DNA of 64,000 nt from Burkholderiaceae bacterium (GTDB lineage: Bacteria; Pseudomonadota; Gammaproteobacteria; Burkholderiales; Burkholderiaceae_F): assembly GCA_019236735.1 (NCBI GenBank), contig JAFAIM010000052.1:1-64000 (forward strand), written 5' to 3'. A program made the translations under genes and the position numbers. Under the pieces are notes generated by a model. That model saw nothing but the letters and a program-made list of their open reading frames with translations. It ran no database searches and was not told the origin of the DNA. Of the stretch, positions 5,544-26,709 are shown one piece after another; within the stretch, counting starts at the first letter, position 1; each line of letters starts with the position of its first letter.

Positions 5544-6648
5544 TCAGACGCCCTGCTTCAGACTGGCGGTGATCAGATCATCCAGGTCCCCGTCCAGCAC
5601 TGCCTGGGTGTTGCCGATCTCGACCTGCGTTCGCAGGTCCTTGATGCGGGATTGGTCCAGCACGTACGAACGGATCTGGTGGCCCCAGGCCACGTCGGTC
5701 TTGGATTCCTCCAGGCGGGACTGTTCGGCCAAGCGCTTGCGCATCTCCAGCTCGAACAGCCTGGATCTGAGCATCGCCATGCATTCAGCGCGGTTGCGGT
5801 GCTGCGAACGGTCGTTCTGGCTCTGCACGACGATACCGGTCGGAATGTGGGTGATTCGAACCGCTGATTCGGTTTTGTTGACGTGCTGGCCGCCGGCTCC
5901 CGAGGCTCGATACACGTCGATGCGAAGATCGGCTGGGTTGATCTCGACCTGCACCGTGTCGTCGACCTCCGGATAGACGAACACGCTGGCGAACGAGGTA
6001 TGTCGGCGCGCGTTGGAGTCGAACGGAGACTTGCGCACCAGCCGGTGCACTCCGGTCTCCGTTCGCAACATGCCGTACGCGTATGAACCGGAGACTTTGA
6101 TCGTCGCGCTTTTGATCCCGGCCACTTCACCGGCCGACTCCTCCAGCACTTCGGCCTTGAAGCTCTTGCGTTCGGCGTAGCGCAGGTACATCCGCTCGAG
6201 CATCGCGGCCCAGTCCTGTGCTTCGGTTCCGCCTGCGCCCGCCTGGATGTCCAGGAAGCAGTTGTTCGGGTCCAGCGGGTTGTGGAACATCCGCCGGAAC
6301 TCCAGATCGCCGATCTCGCGCGCGAGCGACGCCACGTCGGCCTCGATCGCCGTCAGCGCCGCAATGTCCCGATCGCTGCGCGACAGCTCGAACAGCTCGG
6401 TCGCGTCACCCAGATCGTGGTCGAGACGGTGCATCCGATCGACCACTTCCTCGAGCGACTTCTTCTCGCGTCCGAGATCCTGTGCCCGCTTGGGATCGCC
6501 CCAGATGTTCGGCTGCTCGAGCGCAAGGACCACTTCGCTCAGCCGCTTCTGCTTGGTGTCGACGTCAAAGATACCTCCGCAGATCCGATAGCCGGCTGCG
6601 CAGGTCGGACAGGGTTGCGGCGGTCTGATTGAGCTGTTCGGCGTCCAT
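5544..6648 (-). CDS. prfB: Peptide chain release factor 2, with programmed +1 frameshift
   Basis: RF2 recognises UGA and UAA stop codons and triggers peptide release. The main frame contains the SPF stop-reading tripeptide (VRKSPFDSN) and the catalytic GGQ (GAGGQHVNK). Translation begins at the ATG at 6648 ([16 protein letters not shown]...) in a different frame and meets an in-frame UGA at 6567-6565 after 27 codons. A +1 shift at CUU-UGA-C joins it to DVDTKQKR. The product would have 367 residues, the normal RF2 length. The open frame can be read upstream to 6911 without the shift, but that extension has no RF2 similarity. lysS follows 8 bases later. Confidence 0.96.
6564..6579 (-). promoter_or_regulatory. 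prfB: RF2 programmed +1 frameshift site
   Basis: On the minus strand the bases read CGGAGGTATCTTTGAC. An internal Shine-Dalgarno-like GGAGG sits three bases before the CUU slippery codon, followed by UGA and C, a poor termination context. This is the arrangement known from E. coli prfB (AGGGGGUAUCUUUGAC). When RF2 is scarce, the ribosome pauses at UGA and slips +1, so RF2 controls its own synthesis. The site is directly visible; the regulatory role is known from the family. Confidence 0.95.
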
Positions 6649-7028
6649 GGTTTTTCGTCTCCGATGCGCCGATTATCGCCGAACTGAAAGGGCGGAGCGG
6701 CCGGGTGCAGTCTCGCTCCTGGGGCGCCTTTCGCCACCACGGGGGCGGAGGCGGTGCCGCTGGTGGGTTGTAGCCGGCCGACCAGGGGCAGCCAGCACCG
6801 GCGCGGCCTTGCGCGGATACCCGGTCCGTCGAACCGAATTCGACCACACGGGACCCTTGCCGCGAAACCTTGCCCGAACGCCGTTGCCTCGCGTGTGATG
6901 TTGAACAACACGCGCAGGCAACCAGGATCCGGGCGGGATGGGACCGGCTATACCCGACGCGGCTCGCCATCACTGACGGCGACAGGACTGCCAACGGCGC
7001 CTGATCCGAACAGGCGCGAACTGGGCAC
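6649..7028. other. Intergenic stretch upstream of prfB
   Basis: A 380-base interval between the divergent prfB and DUF5681 genes. It must hold the prfB promoter reading leftward, but I could not pick out a convincing -35/-10 pair in this GC-rich DNA. No open frame here has recognisable protein character; the frames that cross it are unmatched extensions of prfB or random. It marks the left edge of the accessory interval that separates prfB from recJ. Confidence 0.5.
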
Positions 7029-7500
7029 ATGCCGAAGTTTCAGGTGGGCCAAAGCGGCAATCCAAGCGGTAGGCCACCGAACCGCGGGAAGACGGCGTTG
7101 CTCAGGCGCGCCATGGAACGGCAGTCGAAGGCGATCATCGATCGTGTGATCCATGCGGCGATCGGCGGGGATGTTCAGTGCGCGAAGCTGGTCCTGGACC
7201 GCGTCTGCCCGCCGTTGCGCCCGGTCGATCTGCCTGTGCAACTACTCGGCGCCGACGGCGACGCCTGGGCCCGCGTCAACACGGTTATGACTGCTGCGCT
7301 CAGCGGGACGATCACGCCGGACGCCTGCGATGGCGTTGCTGGCCGCCTTGGCGCATGGTGCGAGGGTAATTGACAGCGCGACTCCGGGAAAACGGATCGC
7401 TGCCCTGGAAAGACGCTTCGACATAGGACCACCGTCGGCGACAGGGCCAGGAGCACCCGCGCCCGCGAGCGGGGTCCCTACGATGGCCAGCGGGCGTTGA
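7029..7500 (+). pseudogene. DUF5681 family gene broken by a frameshift
   Basis: The first frame (7029-7373, 114 residues) opens with the DUF5681 signature FQVGQSGNPSGRPP and runs normally to about SGTITPDA near 7325. It then loses family character and stops. From about 7331 another frame continues with AMALLAALAHGARVIDSA and GKRIAALERRF, typical of the C-terminal end of DUF5681 proteins, to a TGA at 7498-7500. One extra T near GACGCCTGCGATGG would explain the shift. DUF5681 proteins are mostly phage- or mobile-element-associated and have no established function. A sequencing error cannot be excluded, but the join of two family-like segments is clear. No other phage gene is nearby. Confidence 0.75.
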
Positions 7501-7642
7501 GCGGTGCATCGCAACATGAGCGCCCGCTAACGCGGCAAGGTATCGATCTTTCGGACTGGCTCAGTTCGGCCAGGAGCCGACTACTGAGGGCACAAGGAAG
7601 CTCGGACAAGAGCGGCCCGCCGAGGCTCCTTTGCAGACGCGT

Positions 7643-9607
7643 TCAGCGCGGCAGCGCATAGGCGATTAGATAATCGCCCCGCGTACTGTCGCTCTTATAG
7701 CCGCCGGCGGCGATCACGAGATACTGCCGCCCGGAGATGGAATAGGTCATGGGTGTGGCCTGTCCCCCGGCGGGAAGCTTCACTTCCCAGAGGAGCTTAC
7801 CGCTATCCGTGTCGAACGCACGCAGGCGGTCGTCGAGACTGGCGGCGATGAACACCAAGCCGCCGCCTGTGACGACAGGACCGCCCAGACCCGGCATGCC
7901 CAGAGGCACATGAATGAACGGTGTATCGCCGAGGGGGATTTGCCATTTGATCGTCCCGTGCTCCATATCCACCGCCGTAAGCACGCCCCAGGGCGGCTTT
8001 ACGCACGGAATGCCAAGGTCGGACTTGAACACTTTGCGACGCATTCCGTACGGTGTGCCTTCCTGACGTCCGAACTCCCATTCCGCGTATTTGCCCGACG
8101 CACGTTCCTTCTCCCATCGGGCACGCGGCACGAGCTCGACGATGAACGGCAGATTGATCGTGTTGACGACAGCGAGTTGACGCTTGGGATCGAACGCGAT
8201 GCCACCCCAATTGACACCGCCAGCACTGCCGGGCTGCATGATGGATTCCTTGAGCCGCGGCGGCTGGAAGATGCCTTCCGAGCGGTAGCTCTCGATACGC
8301 CTGCGGCACGCCCGGGTGTCGAACCAGGCGATCCCCCAAGCGTCATCTTCCGTGACCGGCGCCTGACGCGCCAGCGGTGGTGGCGCGACAGGATAAGGTT
8401 GCGTGGGCGAAGGGTGCTCGCCCGGAACTGCGTCCTGCGGCACGGGCCTTTCGATGATCGGGAAAAGTGGCGCGCCGCTCTCGCGGTCGAATGTGTAAAG
8501 GAAACCGGACTTGGTCGCTTGGATGACGGCGGCCACACGCCCGCCGTCGTGCAGAATCTCTACCAGCGTTGGCTGGGACCCGACGTCGTAGTCCCAGAGA
8601 TCATGGTGCACCAGCTGCTGGCCCCAGCTGAACGTGCCGGTATTGCCGTCAAGGGCCACCACCGAGTTAGCCCAGCGATTATCGCCCGGGCGTTCGCCAC
8701 CGAAGAAATCCGGGCTCGCGGATCCGGTGGGCACGAATACGAGGTGGCGGCTCGGGTCCACCGACAGTGGCGCCCAGGCATTGGCCGCGCTCGCCGTTTT
8801 GACGCTCTCCGGAGTCCATTCCTTGTACACCGGATTGGATTCATCACGCGGGATCGGGTCCCAGCTCCAGACCAACTTGCCGGTCCTGGCATCGAACGCC
8901 CGCACGGTGCCGAGTTCAACGAGCACAGCGCGATTGTCGCCGATGGATGACCCGACGATGACCTTCCCGTCCAGGACGGCGGATGGGGAGGTCACGAGAT
9001 AGTCCCGCCACTCGTCACCCTCCTTGAACTGCGAACGCACGCCCTTCAGCAGGTTCACGGTGCCATGCTCACCGAAATCAGCGCAGGGCTTTCCCGTCGC
9101 CGCATCAAGCGCGAGCAACCTGCCGTCCAGCGTGGGTGCGTAAATGCGCGCATGGCACGGGGCGGCCTGAGGGCTAAGATCATCCACCCACAGGGATACC
9201 CCGCGCGACACACCGTCAGAATAGTGCAGGTCTCTGCGACTCTCGCTGTTGTGGCGCCAGCGCAGCGTGCCGGTGACCGCGTCTACTGCGACGACGTCCG
9301 TGCCGCTGGTCGTGAGATAGAGCGTGCCGTCGTAGAGGATAGGGGTGGCTTCGAATGCCGAGCGATTCCAGTCTTTTACGCCATGGCCGAGTTCGCCCGT
9401 ACGGAAGATCCAGGCCACGCGAAGCCGGCCAACATTGGCCGGCGTTATCTCGGCCAGGGGCGAGTACCGGCTCCCGCCAGCGTCACCCCCATAGGCAGGC
9501 CAATCCGCATCAGGTGTCGGAGCAGCCGAGACACTGGTGACGACCGCAAGCACCTGCAGCCCGATGAACGGGCGAGTGATCGTCTGACGCGGTTCGGGCG
9601 TGTCCAT
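7643..9607 (-). CDS. PQQ-dependent (glucose/alcohol-type) quinoprotein dehydrogenase
   Basis: Predicted periplasmic quinoprotein of about 654 residues that oxidises a sugar or alcohol using pyrroloquinoline quinone and passes electrons to ubiquinone. The start ATG at 9607 gives MDTPEPRQ followed by a hydrophobic stretch ending in VSAAP, which fits a signal peptide or anchor; the frame is open upstream to 9730 but without protein character. Beta-propeller repeats are visible as WPAYGGDAGGSRYSPL, NVGRLRVAWIFRTGE, VDAVTGTLRW and GKLVWSWDPI. The C-terminal end (GMPGLGGPVVTGGGLVF) resembles the membrane glucose dehydrogenase subgroup, but the five N-terminal membrane helices of Gcd are absent. No PQQ synthesis gene and no partner cytochrome is in the window. 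It belongs to the accessory interval. Confidence 0.88.
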   Translation of the reverse strand: MDTPEPRQTITRPFIGLQVLAVVTSVSAAPTPDADWPAYGGDAGGSRYSPLAEITPANVGRLRVAWIFRTGELGHGVKDWNRSAFEATPILYDGTLYLTTSGTDVVAVDAVTGTLRWRHNSESRRDLHYSDGVSRGVSLWVDDLSPQAAPCHARIYAPTLDGRLLALDAATGKPCADFGEHGTVNLLKGVRSQFKEGDEWRDYLVTSPSAVLDGKVIVGSSIGDNRAVLVELGTVRAFDARTGKLVWSWDPIPRDESNPVYKEWTPESVKTASAANAWAPLSVDPSRHLVFVPTGSASPDFFGGERPGDNRWANSVVALDGNTGTFSWGQQLVHHDLWDYDVGSQPTLVEILHDGGRVAAVIQATKSGFLYTFDRESGAPLFPIIERPVPQDAVPGEHPSPTQPYPVAPPPLARQAPVTEDDAWGIAWFDTRACRRRIESYRSEGIFQPPRLKESIMQPGSAGGVNWGGIAFDPKRQLAVVNTINLPFIVELVPRARWEKERASGKYAEWEFGRQEGTPYGMRRKVFKSDLGIPCVKPPWGVLTAVDMEHGTIKWQIPLGDTPFIHVPLGMPGLGGPVVTGGGLVFIAASLDDRLRAFDTDSGKLLWEVKLPAGGQATPMTYSISGRQYLVIAAGGYKSDSTRGDYLIAYALPR

Positions 9608-10221
9608 CGCCACGGGCGATCTTACGAGGAGGCTGCTGCTTTTGCGATGATACGGTGAGGCGATGTGAATCGCCCCGGGTTCTCCGGAGGCTTCCGAGTT
9701 TGAGTCAGGCTGGGATAGCCGGACTTTCACTACGACAGTGCGAACTCGTCACGCTCGTCGCGTTTCGCCTCTGCAGTGCGTCGAGGCCGTGTGAAAACGG
9801 GAGTCCGCTTTGGCGCGATGCTGCGGCGAGCGCTGATGTCGGCTCAGGGTCGCGTGCACGCGATGAAGGTCAGCATTGTGGCGCTCGGTCGAAATTCGGG
9901 TCTGCGGCGCTGAGCCGGCCCTCAGCGATCCTGGGACTGGCGTAGAACGCATCGCCGCCGTACGATTTCGACTGCAGCGGCCGCTGGCCGAAGCCAGGGT
10001 CCGCCCATGACCCGTCCGTTCGCCGGTATCCCGAAATTCGCTCCGAAGCGGGCGCCCCCGCTGGGAGACCAGCTAATTCGCGGGCGGGAGACCGGGAGAT
10101 CCAACTACGAGGTGATGATAAGCGCCCGATAACTGCGGCACTCCCTCGAGGTCCGGGCCGGCCTGCTGTTCGGGCAGTACGATTGCAGAAACTTCACAGC
10201 GCAGCGGTGCGCTTGATCGTT
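9608..10221. other. Intergenic region, no gene recognised; possible mobile-element debris
   Basis: About 610 bases between the dehydrogenase and the DUF302 gene, both on the minus strand. Short open frames exist on both strands but none has recognisable protein character. The segments around 9785-9830 (GAGGCCGTGTGAAAACG) and 10080-10140 (TGATAAGCGCCCGATAACTG) look to me like insertion-sequence end debris. I cannot confirm this without a search, and no transposase frame is present. A promoter for the dehydrogenase should lie near 9610-9700, but I see no clear hexamer pair. Confidence 0.4.
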
Positions 10222-10677
10222 TCACTCGAAGGTCGCGTCGAGAAGCGCGGCGAGTCCGGAGATGTTCTTCACCAAGTTTTCCGGAATCGCGTGACGTTCT
10301 TCCAGCGTTTCGGGGTTCCAGTGCGCTACGTGCGTAGCGCCGTCACCGGCCTGCCAGATCAGCACGTGCAACGGCAGATCGATCGCGGACGTTGGCGCAG
10401 CTACCATGACCGGTGTGCCGCCCTTGGGATTTCCCAGCACCAGGACGATCGTCGGCGGCATCACCAGCCCCACGTTCTGCGCATTCCTGGCATGGTCGAT
10501 ACGCGCAAAAATGGTCAGGCCGCGCGCCTTGGCAGCCGCTTCGATCTTGTCGGCGGCCTCATCGACCGTGACGGGAACGATGCGCGAGAGCAGCCCGTGC
10601 TCCGCATGCGCGGGCAGGCTCAGGCCCAGCCAAGACAGCAATGCGAAGGCGGCAAGTACGAAAGATCTAACGATCAT
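10222..10677 (-). CDS. DUF302 domain secreted protein
   Basis: Protein of 151 residues with a clear signal peptide: MIVRSFVLAAFALL with cleavage likely after PAHA. The mature part is a DUF302 domain, seen in the pattern VDEAADKIEAAAKARGLTIFARIDH and the VLVLGNPKGGTPVM segment. DUF302 folds are small alpha/beta domains of unknown function, often periplasmic. The ATG at 10677 was chosen because GGGAG lies just upstream and the signal peptide begins there; the frame is open further upstream to 10746. Its start overlaps the end of the preceding membrane-protein fragment by 11 bases, so the two are probably cotranscribed. Confidence 0.85.
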   Translation of the reverse strand: MIVRSFVLAAFALLSWLGLSLPAHAEHGLLSRIVPVTVDEAADKIEAAAKARGLTIFARIDHARNAQNVGLVMPPTIVLVLGNPKGGTPVMVAAPTSAIDLPLHVLIWQAGDGATHVAHWNPETLEERHAIPENLVKNISGLAALLDATFE

Positions 10678-11047
10678 GGCGGTTCTCCCAGGCGACGAGG
10701 TTGGGGTGGGGCTTCGAAATGGCTGACCGGGCGACGGGCGGGTCATCCTGGCCTCGATCTGGTGATCGTCCGATCCGCAATAGATAGGCGGACAGCATCA
10801 GTGCCACCACCAAGGCCAGTGCGGCCAGCCACGCGCCCGCAGCGCGCAGCGTGTGAAGGTCGCTCTTGACCAGCCGCGGGGGAGTTGTCCTCGGCTGCGG
10901 TATCAGCAGCCGCCCGAAGCTCTCGGAGCCGAGGTGCAAGTCGAAGGTCTCAGCCGCACGCGCAACGTCGTCGGCCACGAGCGTCCCGATCTGAACGTCC
11001 GACCAATCGCCGGCAATCGCAATGACCCGCTGCTTGGCACTGCTCAC
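10667..11047 (-). pseudogene. C-terminal fragment of a frameshifted membrane protein
   Basis: Reading from a GTG at 11047 gives 126 residues: a soluble part (AKQRVIAIAGDWSDVQIGT...), a hydrophobic helix at about residues 76-96 (GAWLAALALVVALMLSAYLL) and a short basic tail. The soluble part reads like the second half of an extracytoplasmic sensor domain whose first half (SDYGEVQEMLSTYADSGYF) ends the upstream fragment. Together they would form helix-sensor-helix, which suggests one ancestral protein cut by a frameshift near 11046-11055. The GTGA overlap would also permit coupled translation as two subunits, so an intact split pair is the alternative. The frame is open upstream to 11587 but has no protein character there. 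Confidence 0.6.
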
Positions 11048-11685
11048 GGCTCCTGCGAGAAGTAGCCGCTGTCGGCGTACGTGGACAACATCTCCTGAAC
11101 CTCGCCATAGTCGCTTTTCGCCAACGCCAGCGAAAGACTGCGCAACATCGCACTGTCCATCAGTGTGCGAACGTGCAATATTTCCAAGTGGCTCTTCTTT
11201 GCGAACAGCCAAACGCCAAGCGCAGCGCATGCCAGCATGGACAGCACACAAGCCCCGCCGGCTTTGACCCAGCGCGCGCGAGCACTCCGAGAACGAGGAT
11301 CGATGCTTGAGAGTGCCGAGCTCGCTGCTTCGCGTTGCCCGGACGCCGCGGCGCTCTTGCTCGCGTTGATGGCCGCGCTGCAAATCTCTTTCATGAGTTG
11401 CACATCGACATTGGAGGCCGGAAGTGATCCGATGCTGCTTAGCTCGGCGAGGACGACCACGCCCGGCTCCGTGCGCCAGACATAAAGCGAGCGCTGCAAG
11501 CCGAGCTTCTTGACAAGAATCTCGCCGATCGCAGTTTTCGAAAGCTGCTCGACGATTCTGGCGAAACCTGGACGCCCAGTATTCCATCCGCGCTCGGACT
11601 TATCGGCCCCGACGACGACGCGATTTTCGACCGACCAGCTCGATCGGCACTCGAGCGATTGTAGATCGATGACCGCGGTCCGCAA
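11044..11685 (-). pseudogene. N-terminal fragment of a frameshifted membrane protein
   Basis: This frame encodes 213 residues from a TTG at 11685. Residues about 1-135 are soluble and unrecognised (RPGFARIVEQLSKTAIGE and GVVVLAELSSIGS stand out). A transmembrane helix follows at about 144-163 (GGACVLSMLACAALGVWLF), and then a periplasmic-looking segment that ends abruptly at YFSQEP. The sequence continues sensibly in the next frame. The start is uncertain: TTGCGG at 11685-11680 and TACAAT at 11663-11658 with a 16-base spacer resemble a promoter that would overlap it. The frame is also open upstream to about 11736 without an ATG. The family is unknown. Confidence 0.55.
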
Positions 11686-12005
11686 CTTCCTGGCCTCTAG
11701 CGGATTGAAGAACGCTTCGAAGTCGCCGGGCAGCGACTACCACTCGCCGCTCGCCGCCGCCCCAAACTCCCCGATACGCGGTACCGGCGTGTCCGGACTT
11801 ACCCTCTGTCCCCATGAAGGGACGGGCGAGTCAGTCGCGCGCCGGGTGGAAGCCACGCCGTTCACTTGGCAACGCTCATTGCGCGTCGCGTTTGCTCCAC
11901 GTAGCTGTCCAGCTCGCGCAACTGCGCCTCGTCGGCGTCGTTCATGGCCGCAATGCCGGTCGCACTCGCGAAAACCGCCTGACAGGACGTCCACTCCCCC
12001 TTCTT
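11686..12005. other. Intergenic stretch after recJ; tiny ORF only
   Basis: About 320 bases between the recJ stop and the membrane-protein fragment. On the minus strand the recJ frame stays open after its stop and includes an ATG at 11945 that would give 27 residues (MNDADEAQLRELDSY..., stop at 11862). The segment is helical and acidic, but it has no clear ribosome-binding site. It may be a small gene or the tail of a decayed one. Nothing else is recognised. This marks the right edge of the accessory interval. Confidence 0.35.
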
Positions 12006-13718
12006 TCAATTTCCACGATCCGCGGCGACAACGTGCAGTCGGATTCGCCGCAACCCCTGGTAGGTGTCGAACTTCAGCCGATACGCCAGGCGTGCGCGCG
12101 ACGGCAGTGTTTCGGTCCGTCCGAACCAGACCGCCGGAAGCCGTCTGCGTTCGAGCCCGAGCGTCAGCTGCAGATGCCGGTCCTGCAGCAGGCGTTGTTC
12201 CAGAACCTCGAACTCGTTGGCGAACAGCGGCTCCGCGAAACCCTGGCCCCAAACGATCGCTTCGATCGCCTCGGCCAGCTCCGGCCCGATCTCGTTCGGC
12301 GCGAGCACGCCGTCGGTTGCGAGCGAGCGAGCGAACAGCGACGAGTCGGCCATTGCTCGCGTTGCCGCTTCGAACGCCTCGCTGAAGGCCTCCAGGTGCT
12401 CGCGGCGAAGGGTCAAGCCGGCCGCCATGGCATGCCCGCCGAAACGCTCGATCAACGCCGGCGCAGCCTTGGTGACGCGATCCAAGGTGTCGCGCAGGTG
12501 AATGCCGTCGATCGAACGGCCGGAGCCGCGCAGCGTGCCGTCTCCGCCCTGCGCGAACGCGATCGTCGGCCGGTGATAGCGCTCCTTGATGCGCGATGCC
12601 ACCAATCCGACGATCCCCTGGTGCCACTGGGGGTCGAACAGAACGATCGATCGCCGCTGCGCGAATCCCTGCGCATCGATGCCGTCGATCGCTTCCTCCT
12701 GCATTTTTGCTTCGATCTGGCGGCGTTCTCGGTTCAGTCGATCGAGCTGACGCGCCAATTCGTCCGCGCGCGCCGGATCGTCGCACGTCAAGCATTCGAT
12801 CCCGACGGTCATCTCTGCCAGGCGGCCGGCGGCGTTGATTCGGGGCGCAATCGAAAAGCCCAAGTCTTCGGCGCGAGCTTCCGGCGCGCTTCGGCCGGCG
12901 GCCCGGAACAGCGCCGCCACGCCCGGCTGAAGGCTGCCGCGCCGGATGTTCTGCAGACCCGCACTGACCAGCGCGCGGTTGTTGCGGTCCAGGCGGACCA
13001 GATCGGCTACCGTGCCGAGCGCCACTAGATCGAGCAGCGAACCCAGGTGGGGCTGCGATGCTCCGTCATACCGTCCGCGGCCGCGCAGCTCGGCCCGCAG
13101 CGCGGTCAGCACGTAGAACATCACTCCAACTCCCGCCAGATGCTTGGACGGGAAGGTGCATCCCGGCACGTTCGGATTGACGATCGCGCGGGCGGCGGGC
13201 AGCCGTTCGCCGGGAAGGTGATGGTCGGTGATCAGCACCTGGATGCCGAGAGCGTTGGCGCGCTCGACTCCCTCGACGCTCGCCACACCGTTGTCCACCG
13301 TGATGATCCAGTCCGGATGCCTCGCAGCCGCCAGCTCGACCAGCGCCGGGGTCAGTCCGTATCCGAATTCGAAGCGGTTTGGGACCAGGTATTCCACCTG
13401 GGCGCCCATCGCGCGCAATGCGCGCACGCCAACCGCGCACGCAGTGGCGCCGTCGCAGTCGTAGTCGGCGACGATCAGTAGTCGTTGCCCCTGCTCGATC
13501 GCTTCGGCCAGGAGAAACGCGGCGCGCTGGCACTGGTCCAGCAGTGCCGGAGCGTGCAGTTCGGCCAGCGTCGGGTTCAGTTCCGAGGTCGATAGGATGC
13601 CGCGCGCGGCCAAAGCGCGCGCAAGCGGCGCGGGGATGCCGGCGGCGGTCAAGCGGCCCGCGACACCCGGGTCGTACGGGCGCTCGGCCAGGGTCGGAAG
13701 TGGGGGAAGCGCACTCAT
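12006..13718 (-). CDS. recJ: Single-stranded-DNA-specific 5'-3' exonuclease RecJ
   Basis: Degrades single-stranded DNA 5' to 3' in recombinational repair (RecFOR pathway), mismatch repair and base excision repair. The 570 residues match the family. DHH-superfamily motifs bind the metal pair: DYDCDGA at 85-91, VDNG at 141-144 and DHH at 165-167. The DHHA1 motif FGGHAMAAG lies later, and an OB-fold region closes the protein. The RpfE/PGM-like gene lies 28 bases upstream on the same strand. In related bacteria recJ is usually followed closely by prfB; here about 5.3 kb of accessory DNA intervenes. Confidence 0.96.
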   Translation of the reverse strand: MSALPPLPTLAERPYDPGVAGRLTAAGIPAPLARALAARGILSTSELNPTLAELHAPALLDQCQRAAFLLAEAIEQGQRLLIVADYDCDGATACAVGVRALRAMGAQVEYLVPNRFEFGYGLTPALVELAAARHPDWIITVDNGVASVEGVERANALGIQVLITDHHLPGERLPAARAIVNPNVPGCTFPSKHLAGVGVMFYVLTALRAELRGRGRYDGASQPHLGSLLDLVALGTVADLVRLDRNNRALVSAGLQNIRRGSLQPGVAALFRAAGRSAPEARAEDLGFSIAPRINAAGRLAEMTVGIECLTCDDPARADELARQLDRLNRERRQIEAKMQEEAIDGIDAQGFAQRRSIVLFDPQWHQGIVGLVASRIKERYHRPTIAFAQGGDGTLRGSGRSIDGIHLRDTLDRVTKAAPALIERFGGHAMAAGLTLRREHLEAFSEAFEAATRAMADSSLFARSLATDGVLAPNEIGPELAEAIEAIVWGQGFAEPLFANEFEVLEQRLLQDRHLQLTLGLERRRLPAVWFGRTETLPSRARLAYRLKFDTYQGLRRIRLHVVAADRGN

Positions 13719-26632: not shown

Positions 26633-26709
26633 AGGCGCGTAGCTCAGCTGGCTAGAGCACCACCTTGACATGGTGGGGGTCGTTGGTTCGAGTCCAATCG
26701 CGCCTACCA
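26633..26709 (+). tRNA. tRNA-Val (GAC)
   Basis: A 77-base cloverleaf. The acceptor stem pairs AGGCGCG (26633-26639) with CGCGCCT (26699-26705), then discriminator A and an encoded CCA. The anticodon stem CCACC/GGTGG encloses TTGACAT, giving anticodon GAC. The T arm GTTGG-TTCGAGT-CCAAT is complete. TATCAT at 26616-26621 could be a -10 box. thrS starts 10 bases downstream, so tRNA processing may free the thrS message. Confidence 0.97.

Follow-up and report, generated by a model that had tools for sequence, protein, structure and literature searches.

The split membrane sensor gene that lies between recJ and prfB in a Burkholderiaceae bacterium is very probably an ordinary pseudogene, truncated and relocated. 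What looks like a split protein would thus be a broken copy, and annotation should give a pseudogene rather than a pair of coupled genes. The window analyzed is a stretch of 64,000 nucleotides (contig JAFAIM010000052.1 of assembly GCA_019236735.1), and all coordinates below are positions in it. The genome to which it belongs (G000; 3.32 Mb in 95 contigs) is the sole genome of its species in our comparison. A side result is a rare conserved gene pair, encoding a phosphonate-binding-type protein and a two-helix sensor without a Pfam family, which may be of interest for work on receptors linked to solute-binding proteins.

On the minus strand, an open reading frame of 213 aa with a TTG start (11044..11685) ends in ADSGYFSQEP* at TGA 11044-11046. 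A GTG at 11047 overlaps this stop and opens a second frame of 126 codons, reading (V)SSAKQRVIAIAGDW..., which closes at the stop 10667-10669. The initial annotation had described exactly this, an upstream frame ending in YFSQEP and a next frame on an overlapping GTGA, and the two together do give 213+126 = 339 residues. A single hydrophobic peak occurs in each half, GACVLSMLACAALGVWLFA in the upstream and AWLAALALVVALMLSAYLL in the downstream one, and these are the two peaks of an intact paralogue. As both halves match one continuous protein of the same genome (E 1.2e-90 for the first part, 2.3e-30 for the second), the split frames are not a chance arrangement. The proposal that the joined frames represent a single helix-sensor-helix protein is further supported by the homologues that the initial annotation had called for: both parts form a single chain in all four distinct intact loci, and no split copy was found outside the window.

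The sensor gene does not start at 11685, as had been assumed. Homology in the same frame extends upstream to GTG 11865, and an in-frame TAG (11737..11739, minus strand) lies between the two positions. Defined in this way, the upstream part of the broken gene (11047..11865, minus strand) comprises an N-terminal cytoplasmic-type region, the first transmembrane helix and the helical segment that opens the sensor domain, and it shares 61.5% amino acid identity over 270 codons with the intact copy of a genome of the same genus, G001. The downstream part (10667..11047, minus strand) contains four sensor-domain strands, the second transmembrane helix and an altered C-terminus, with 58% identity to the same copy over 112 codons and a further match at E 7.1e-36.

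Two lesions disrupt the gene. The first is the TAG, recognized by homology as codon 43 from GTG 11865, where the window reads ...SGEW*SLPGDFEAFF and intact copies read SDEQWSLGGDFESFF and GDEPRPLGGNFETFF; it is independent of the frame break. The initial annotation had overlooked both this lesion and the remnant of a partner gene further upstream. The frame break itself (11044..11055, minus strand) was located by alignment: between positions 10773 and 11979, the window is 75.8% identical to G001 with four gaps. Three of these measure 3 nt; the remaining one, a single nucleotide, is the sole gap whose length is not divisible by 3 and hence the only one of the four to break the frame. It corresponds to a net loss of one base near window position 11052, after which the frame runs into TGA 11044-11046. 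A small insertion had been suggested near 11046-11055; a small indel is indeed present there, but relative to the same-genus copy it is a one-base loss and not an insertion. At the junction, the two closest intact copies, to which the DNA-level check was applied (G001 and the paralogue on contig 53 of the window's own genome, G000:C53), read GCC GTG AGC (Ala-Val-Ser) in frame. Since GTGA is thus already present in intact genes, the stop/start overlap arises only through the shifted frame, of which it is a by-product.

A sequencing or assembly error, in which the missing base is an artefact and the cell carries an unbroken gene, is improbable as an explanation. The genome is a 95-contig assembly, codon positions still appear constrained and just one gap breaks the frame, all of which would fit such an error. 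However, a single indel error explains neither the separate in-frame TAG nor the near-total loss of the partner gene, the longest single-base run within 11035-11075 is only 2, and the neighbouring recJ (12006..13718, minus strand; TIGR00644, 483 bits against a cut-off of 397) is intact and open over 570 codons. As for the constraint, dN/dS estimates (YN00) against G001 are 0.25/0.59 in the upstream and 0.31/0.90 in the downstream half, close to the 0.30/0.85 obtained between the two intact copies. With values so near those of the intact pair, substitutions still look constrained and nothing points to prolonged decay: either the lesions are recent or too few changes have accumulated, and the gene, if dead, died recently.

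The same overlap could be read as a pair of subunits whose translation is coupled by termination-reinitiation. Coupled genes are commonly laid out with a GTGA overlap, and both halves stay open, yet this reading, which the initial annotation had raised, is very unlikely. One chain is encoded at each of the four distinct intact loci, the GTG is an in-frame valine codon followed by AGC in the two intact copies checked, and the first half is already cut by the TAG. The position of the break adds a structural argument. In a model of the helix-sensor-helix part obtained from three intact homologues (mean pLDDT 76.3, pTM 0.55, with a pLDDT of about 90 in the sensor domain), the break maps to residues 79-81, that is, within the first strand (79-83) of one compact domain. 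Each half alone would therefore contain an incomplete domain, as is hardly expected of natural subunits.

Least probable of all, and hardly credible, is a programmed -1 frameshift joining the halves. At the overlap, the second frame is indeed in the -1 position with respect to the first, and a recoding site had been proposed, but a scan for the XXXYYYZ type of site found no such heptamer on the minus strand of 11044-11685. By contrast, the well-known site GGAGGTATCTTTGAC in prfB (6564-6573, minus strand), the classic RF2 programmed frameshift site, is conserved between the window and G001. Moreover, the four intact relatives are in one frame and need no recoding, and the upstream TAG would stop translation in any case.

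The pseudogene reading is thus favoured by intact homologous open frames at four distinct loci, by more than one disabling lesion (the TAG and the one-base loss) and by the truncation of the gene that precedes it. This gene encodes a phosphonate-binding-type protein and stands before the sensor gene in three of the four intact loci, those of G001, of a Burkholderiales MAG and of Schlegelella koreensis (PF12974, E 1e-29, 2.6e-31 and 4e-33, respectively). All that homology identifies of it in the window is its last 38 codons (11865..11978, minus strand), 82% identical to residues 411-448 of the G001 partner, a PhnD-like protein with a LysM-like N-terminus taken as a 448-residue query (477 aa with an earlier start). 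Residues 1-410 of this query had no match at the window locus. The stop of the remnant, TGA 11862-11864, overlaps the sensor GTG at 11863-11865. There is no other close copy of the partner in G000, where the remaining matches reach 37% (query residues 90-182) and 24% (177-327), and none lies directly before the G000:C53 paralogue among its listed frames. The LysM-like region of the partner is only suggested by weak matches: NF008399 below the cut-off in G001 and PF01476 in S. koreensis (20.7 bits against a cut-off of 20.9), with no LysM among the matches listed for the Burkholderiales MAG protein. Around the intact pairs, a DUF6851 + VCPO_2nd gene neighbours the binding-protein and sensor genes in two genera, with a differing gene order (L007 6818-11617, L023 1600-6023 and L022 3546-7199), and in the Burkholderiales MAG (L022) the gene after the pair encodes a class III cyclase.

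The genomic setting points to relocation. The homologous ends of recJ and prfB are 33 bp apart in G001 and 5.3 kb apart in the window, where they flank a block (6684..12021) that is absent from the G001 junction. Among four relatives examined, prfB directly follows recJ in three (G001, G007 and G009); in G018, prfB was not found within 1.5 kb behind recJ. Given this adjacency in relatives, the sensor fragment is most likely a relocated piece. Besides the broken sensor, the block contains a DUF5681 frame (7029-7373; PF18932, E 2.2e-10), a PQQ-dependent dehydrogenase-like gene (7643-9730; PF01011, E 1.8e-222) and, next downstream of the sensor, a DUF302 protein gene (10222..10677, minus strand; PF03625, E 2.5e-18), for which ATG 10677 was chosen as a signal-peptide-like start while the mechanical ORF starts at 10746. 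A search for repeats at the ends of the block yielded only short imperfect ones, and no tRNA lies near it, the nearest being at 26633.

In the scenario we propose, a fragment of a conserved two-gene unit, a phosphonate-binding-type gene followed by a two-helix sensor gene, would have come to lie between recJ and prfB. Most of the first gene would have been missing on arrival or been lost there, leaving 38 codons. The nonsense codon and the one-base frameshift would have disabled the sensor gene, the GTGA overlap being accidental. We infer that the window copy is most likely without a functional product; as a counterpoint, TTG 11685, which lies after the TAG, could give an N-terminally shortened first half.

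The intact homologues are few. The paralogue G000:C53 encodes 347 aa in a single frame that runs through the break point as YFDQAAVSNAKYRVIAIAG; its identity to the window copy is 62% in the upstream part and 59% in the downstream part. The three others, each one chain located behind a phosphonate-binding-type gene, have 382 aa in the same-genus genome (G001:C243), 319 aa in the Burkholderiales MAG and 397 aa in S. koreensis (NZ_JABWMJ010000001.1). A search of 101 genomes taken as relatives gave matches in two, G000 and G001. In 399 genomes of the order, the G001 protein matched three (G000, G231 and G108) and a profile search two (G000 and G231). A scan of genome contigs found three relatives among 387 candidate stretches: VBCK01000176.1 (Betaproteobacteria MAG BP_15), which is 100% identical to the G001 contig; JAEUOR010000053.1 (Burkholderiales MAG), with the same open frames as G231, of 411 and 319 aa; and S. 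koreensis. The G108 match (E 9.8e-4, with one internal TGA) was dropped as chance: the open frames at that locus resemble a TolQ/ExbB-type protein and an aminotransferase, and the profile search did not return this genome. Stops within matches to intact loci (two TGA in G000:C53, one TGA in G231) reflect matches that overrun the ends of the open frames, and none occurred in other searches of the same places.

All four intact homologues share with the window copy the succession of helix, sensor domain and helix, a DYGEVQ motif and an A-x-V-x-N-A strand; they differ from it in being single chains, without the TAG and without the frame break. Two of them stand apart from the others, the Burkholderiales MAG copy by lacking the N-terminal domain and G000:C53 by having no phosphonate-binding-type partner gene close by.

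Sequence searches place the sensor in no recognized family. No Pfam family scored above its cut-off for the window halves, the paralogue or the other intact homologues; Resolvase for the upstream half (E 0.067) and CHASE8 in one of three sequences (E 0.061) both stayed below theirs. NCBIfam gave nothing above cut-off for the two intact copies tried, and neither a PDB sequence search nor a plasmid collection searched in protein mode returned a match. The N-terminal region of about 150 residues likewise has no family match above cut-off and is modelled with low confidence; family searches found no kinase, cyclase or GGDEF/EAL family in the same chain as the sensor. The listings and opening parts of abstracts returned by a literature search contain nothing on this sensor family, which is no proof of its absence from print.

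Where it is intact, the protein most likely acts as a two-helix receptor whose extracytoplasmic domain, to judge by the predicted model, is probably PAS/Cache-like: an N-terminal cytoplasmic domain would be followed by one helix, the extracytoplasmic domain and a second helix. Judging from gene order, such a sensor may respond to a ligand handed over by the binding protein of the neighbouring gene. It is conceivable, and we put it forward only tentatively, that the intact family and its partner constitute an undescribed betaproteobacterial receptor unit, in which a binding protein held at the wall or envelope presents its ligand to the PAS/Cache-like sensor and the signal passes into an N-terminal cytoplasmic domain without known family, the window copy being dead.

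Fold comparisons were made with the helix-sensor-helix model, the full-length model (mean pLDDT 57, pTM 0.32) being kept out of the search. Foldseek returned two matches at E <= 0.001, the LapD-type CdgS9 (4u64, 2.3e-4) and an integrative model of WalK (9a5d_A, 5.7e-4); its weaker rows contained more WalK, DctB and CitA sensor domains, with some GAF domains lower. TM-scores of the structural matches are modest (0.36-0.60). In VIA-align, the best Z was 9.5 (9a5d_A), little above the 7 to 8 that the tool notes as usual without a clear match, which speaks for a PAS/Cache-like arrangement but does not place the domain in any one family. Among individual structures, the WalK domain 4ywz_A superposes on the sensor model with Z 9.3 (4.6 A over 117 residues), and the CitA domain 2j80_B with Z 9.1 (2.9 A over 87 residues). 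At sequence identities of 8-24%, the sensor domains of WalK, CitA, DctB and the LapD-type CdgS9 display an order of helices and strands like that of the predicted model.
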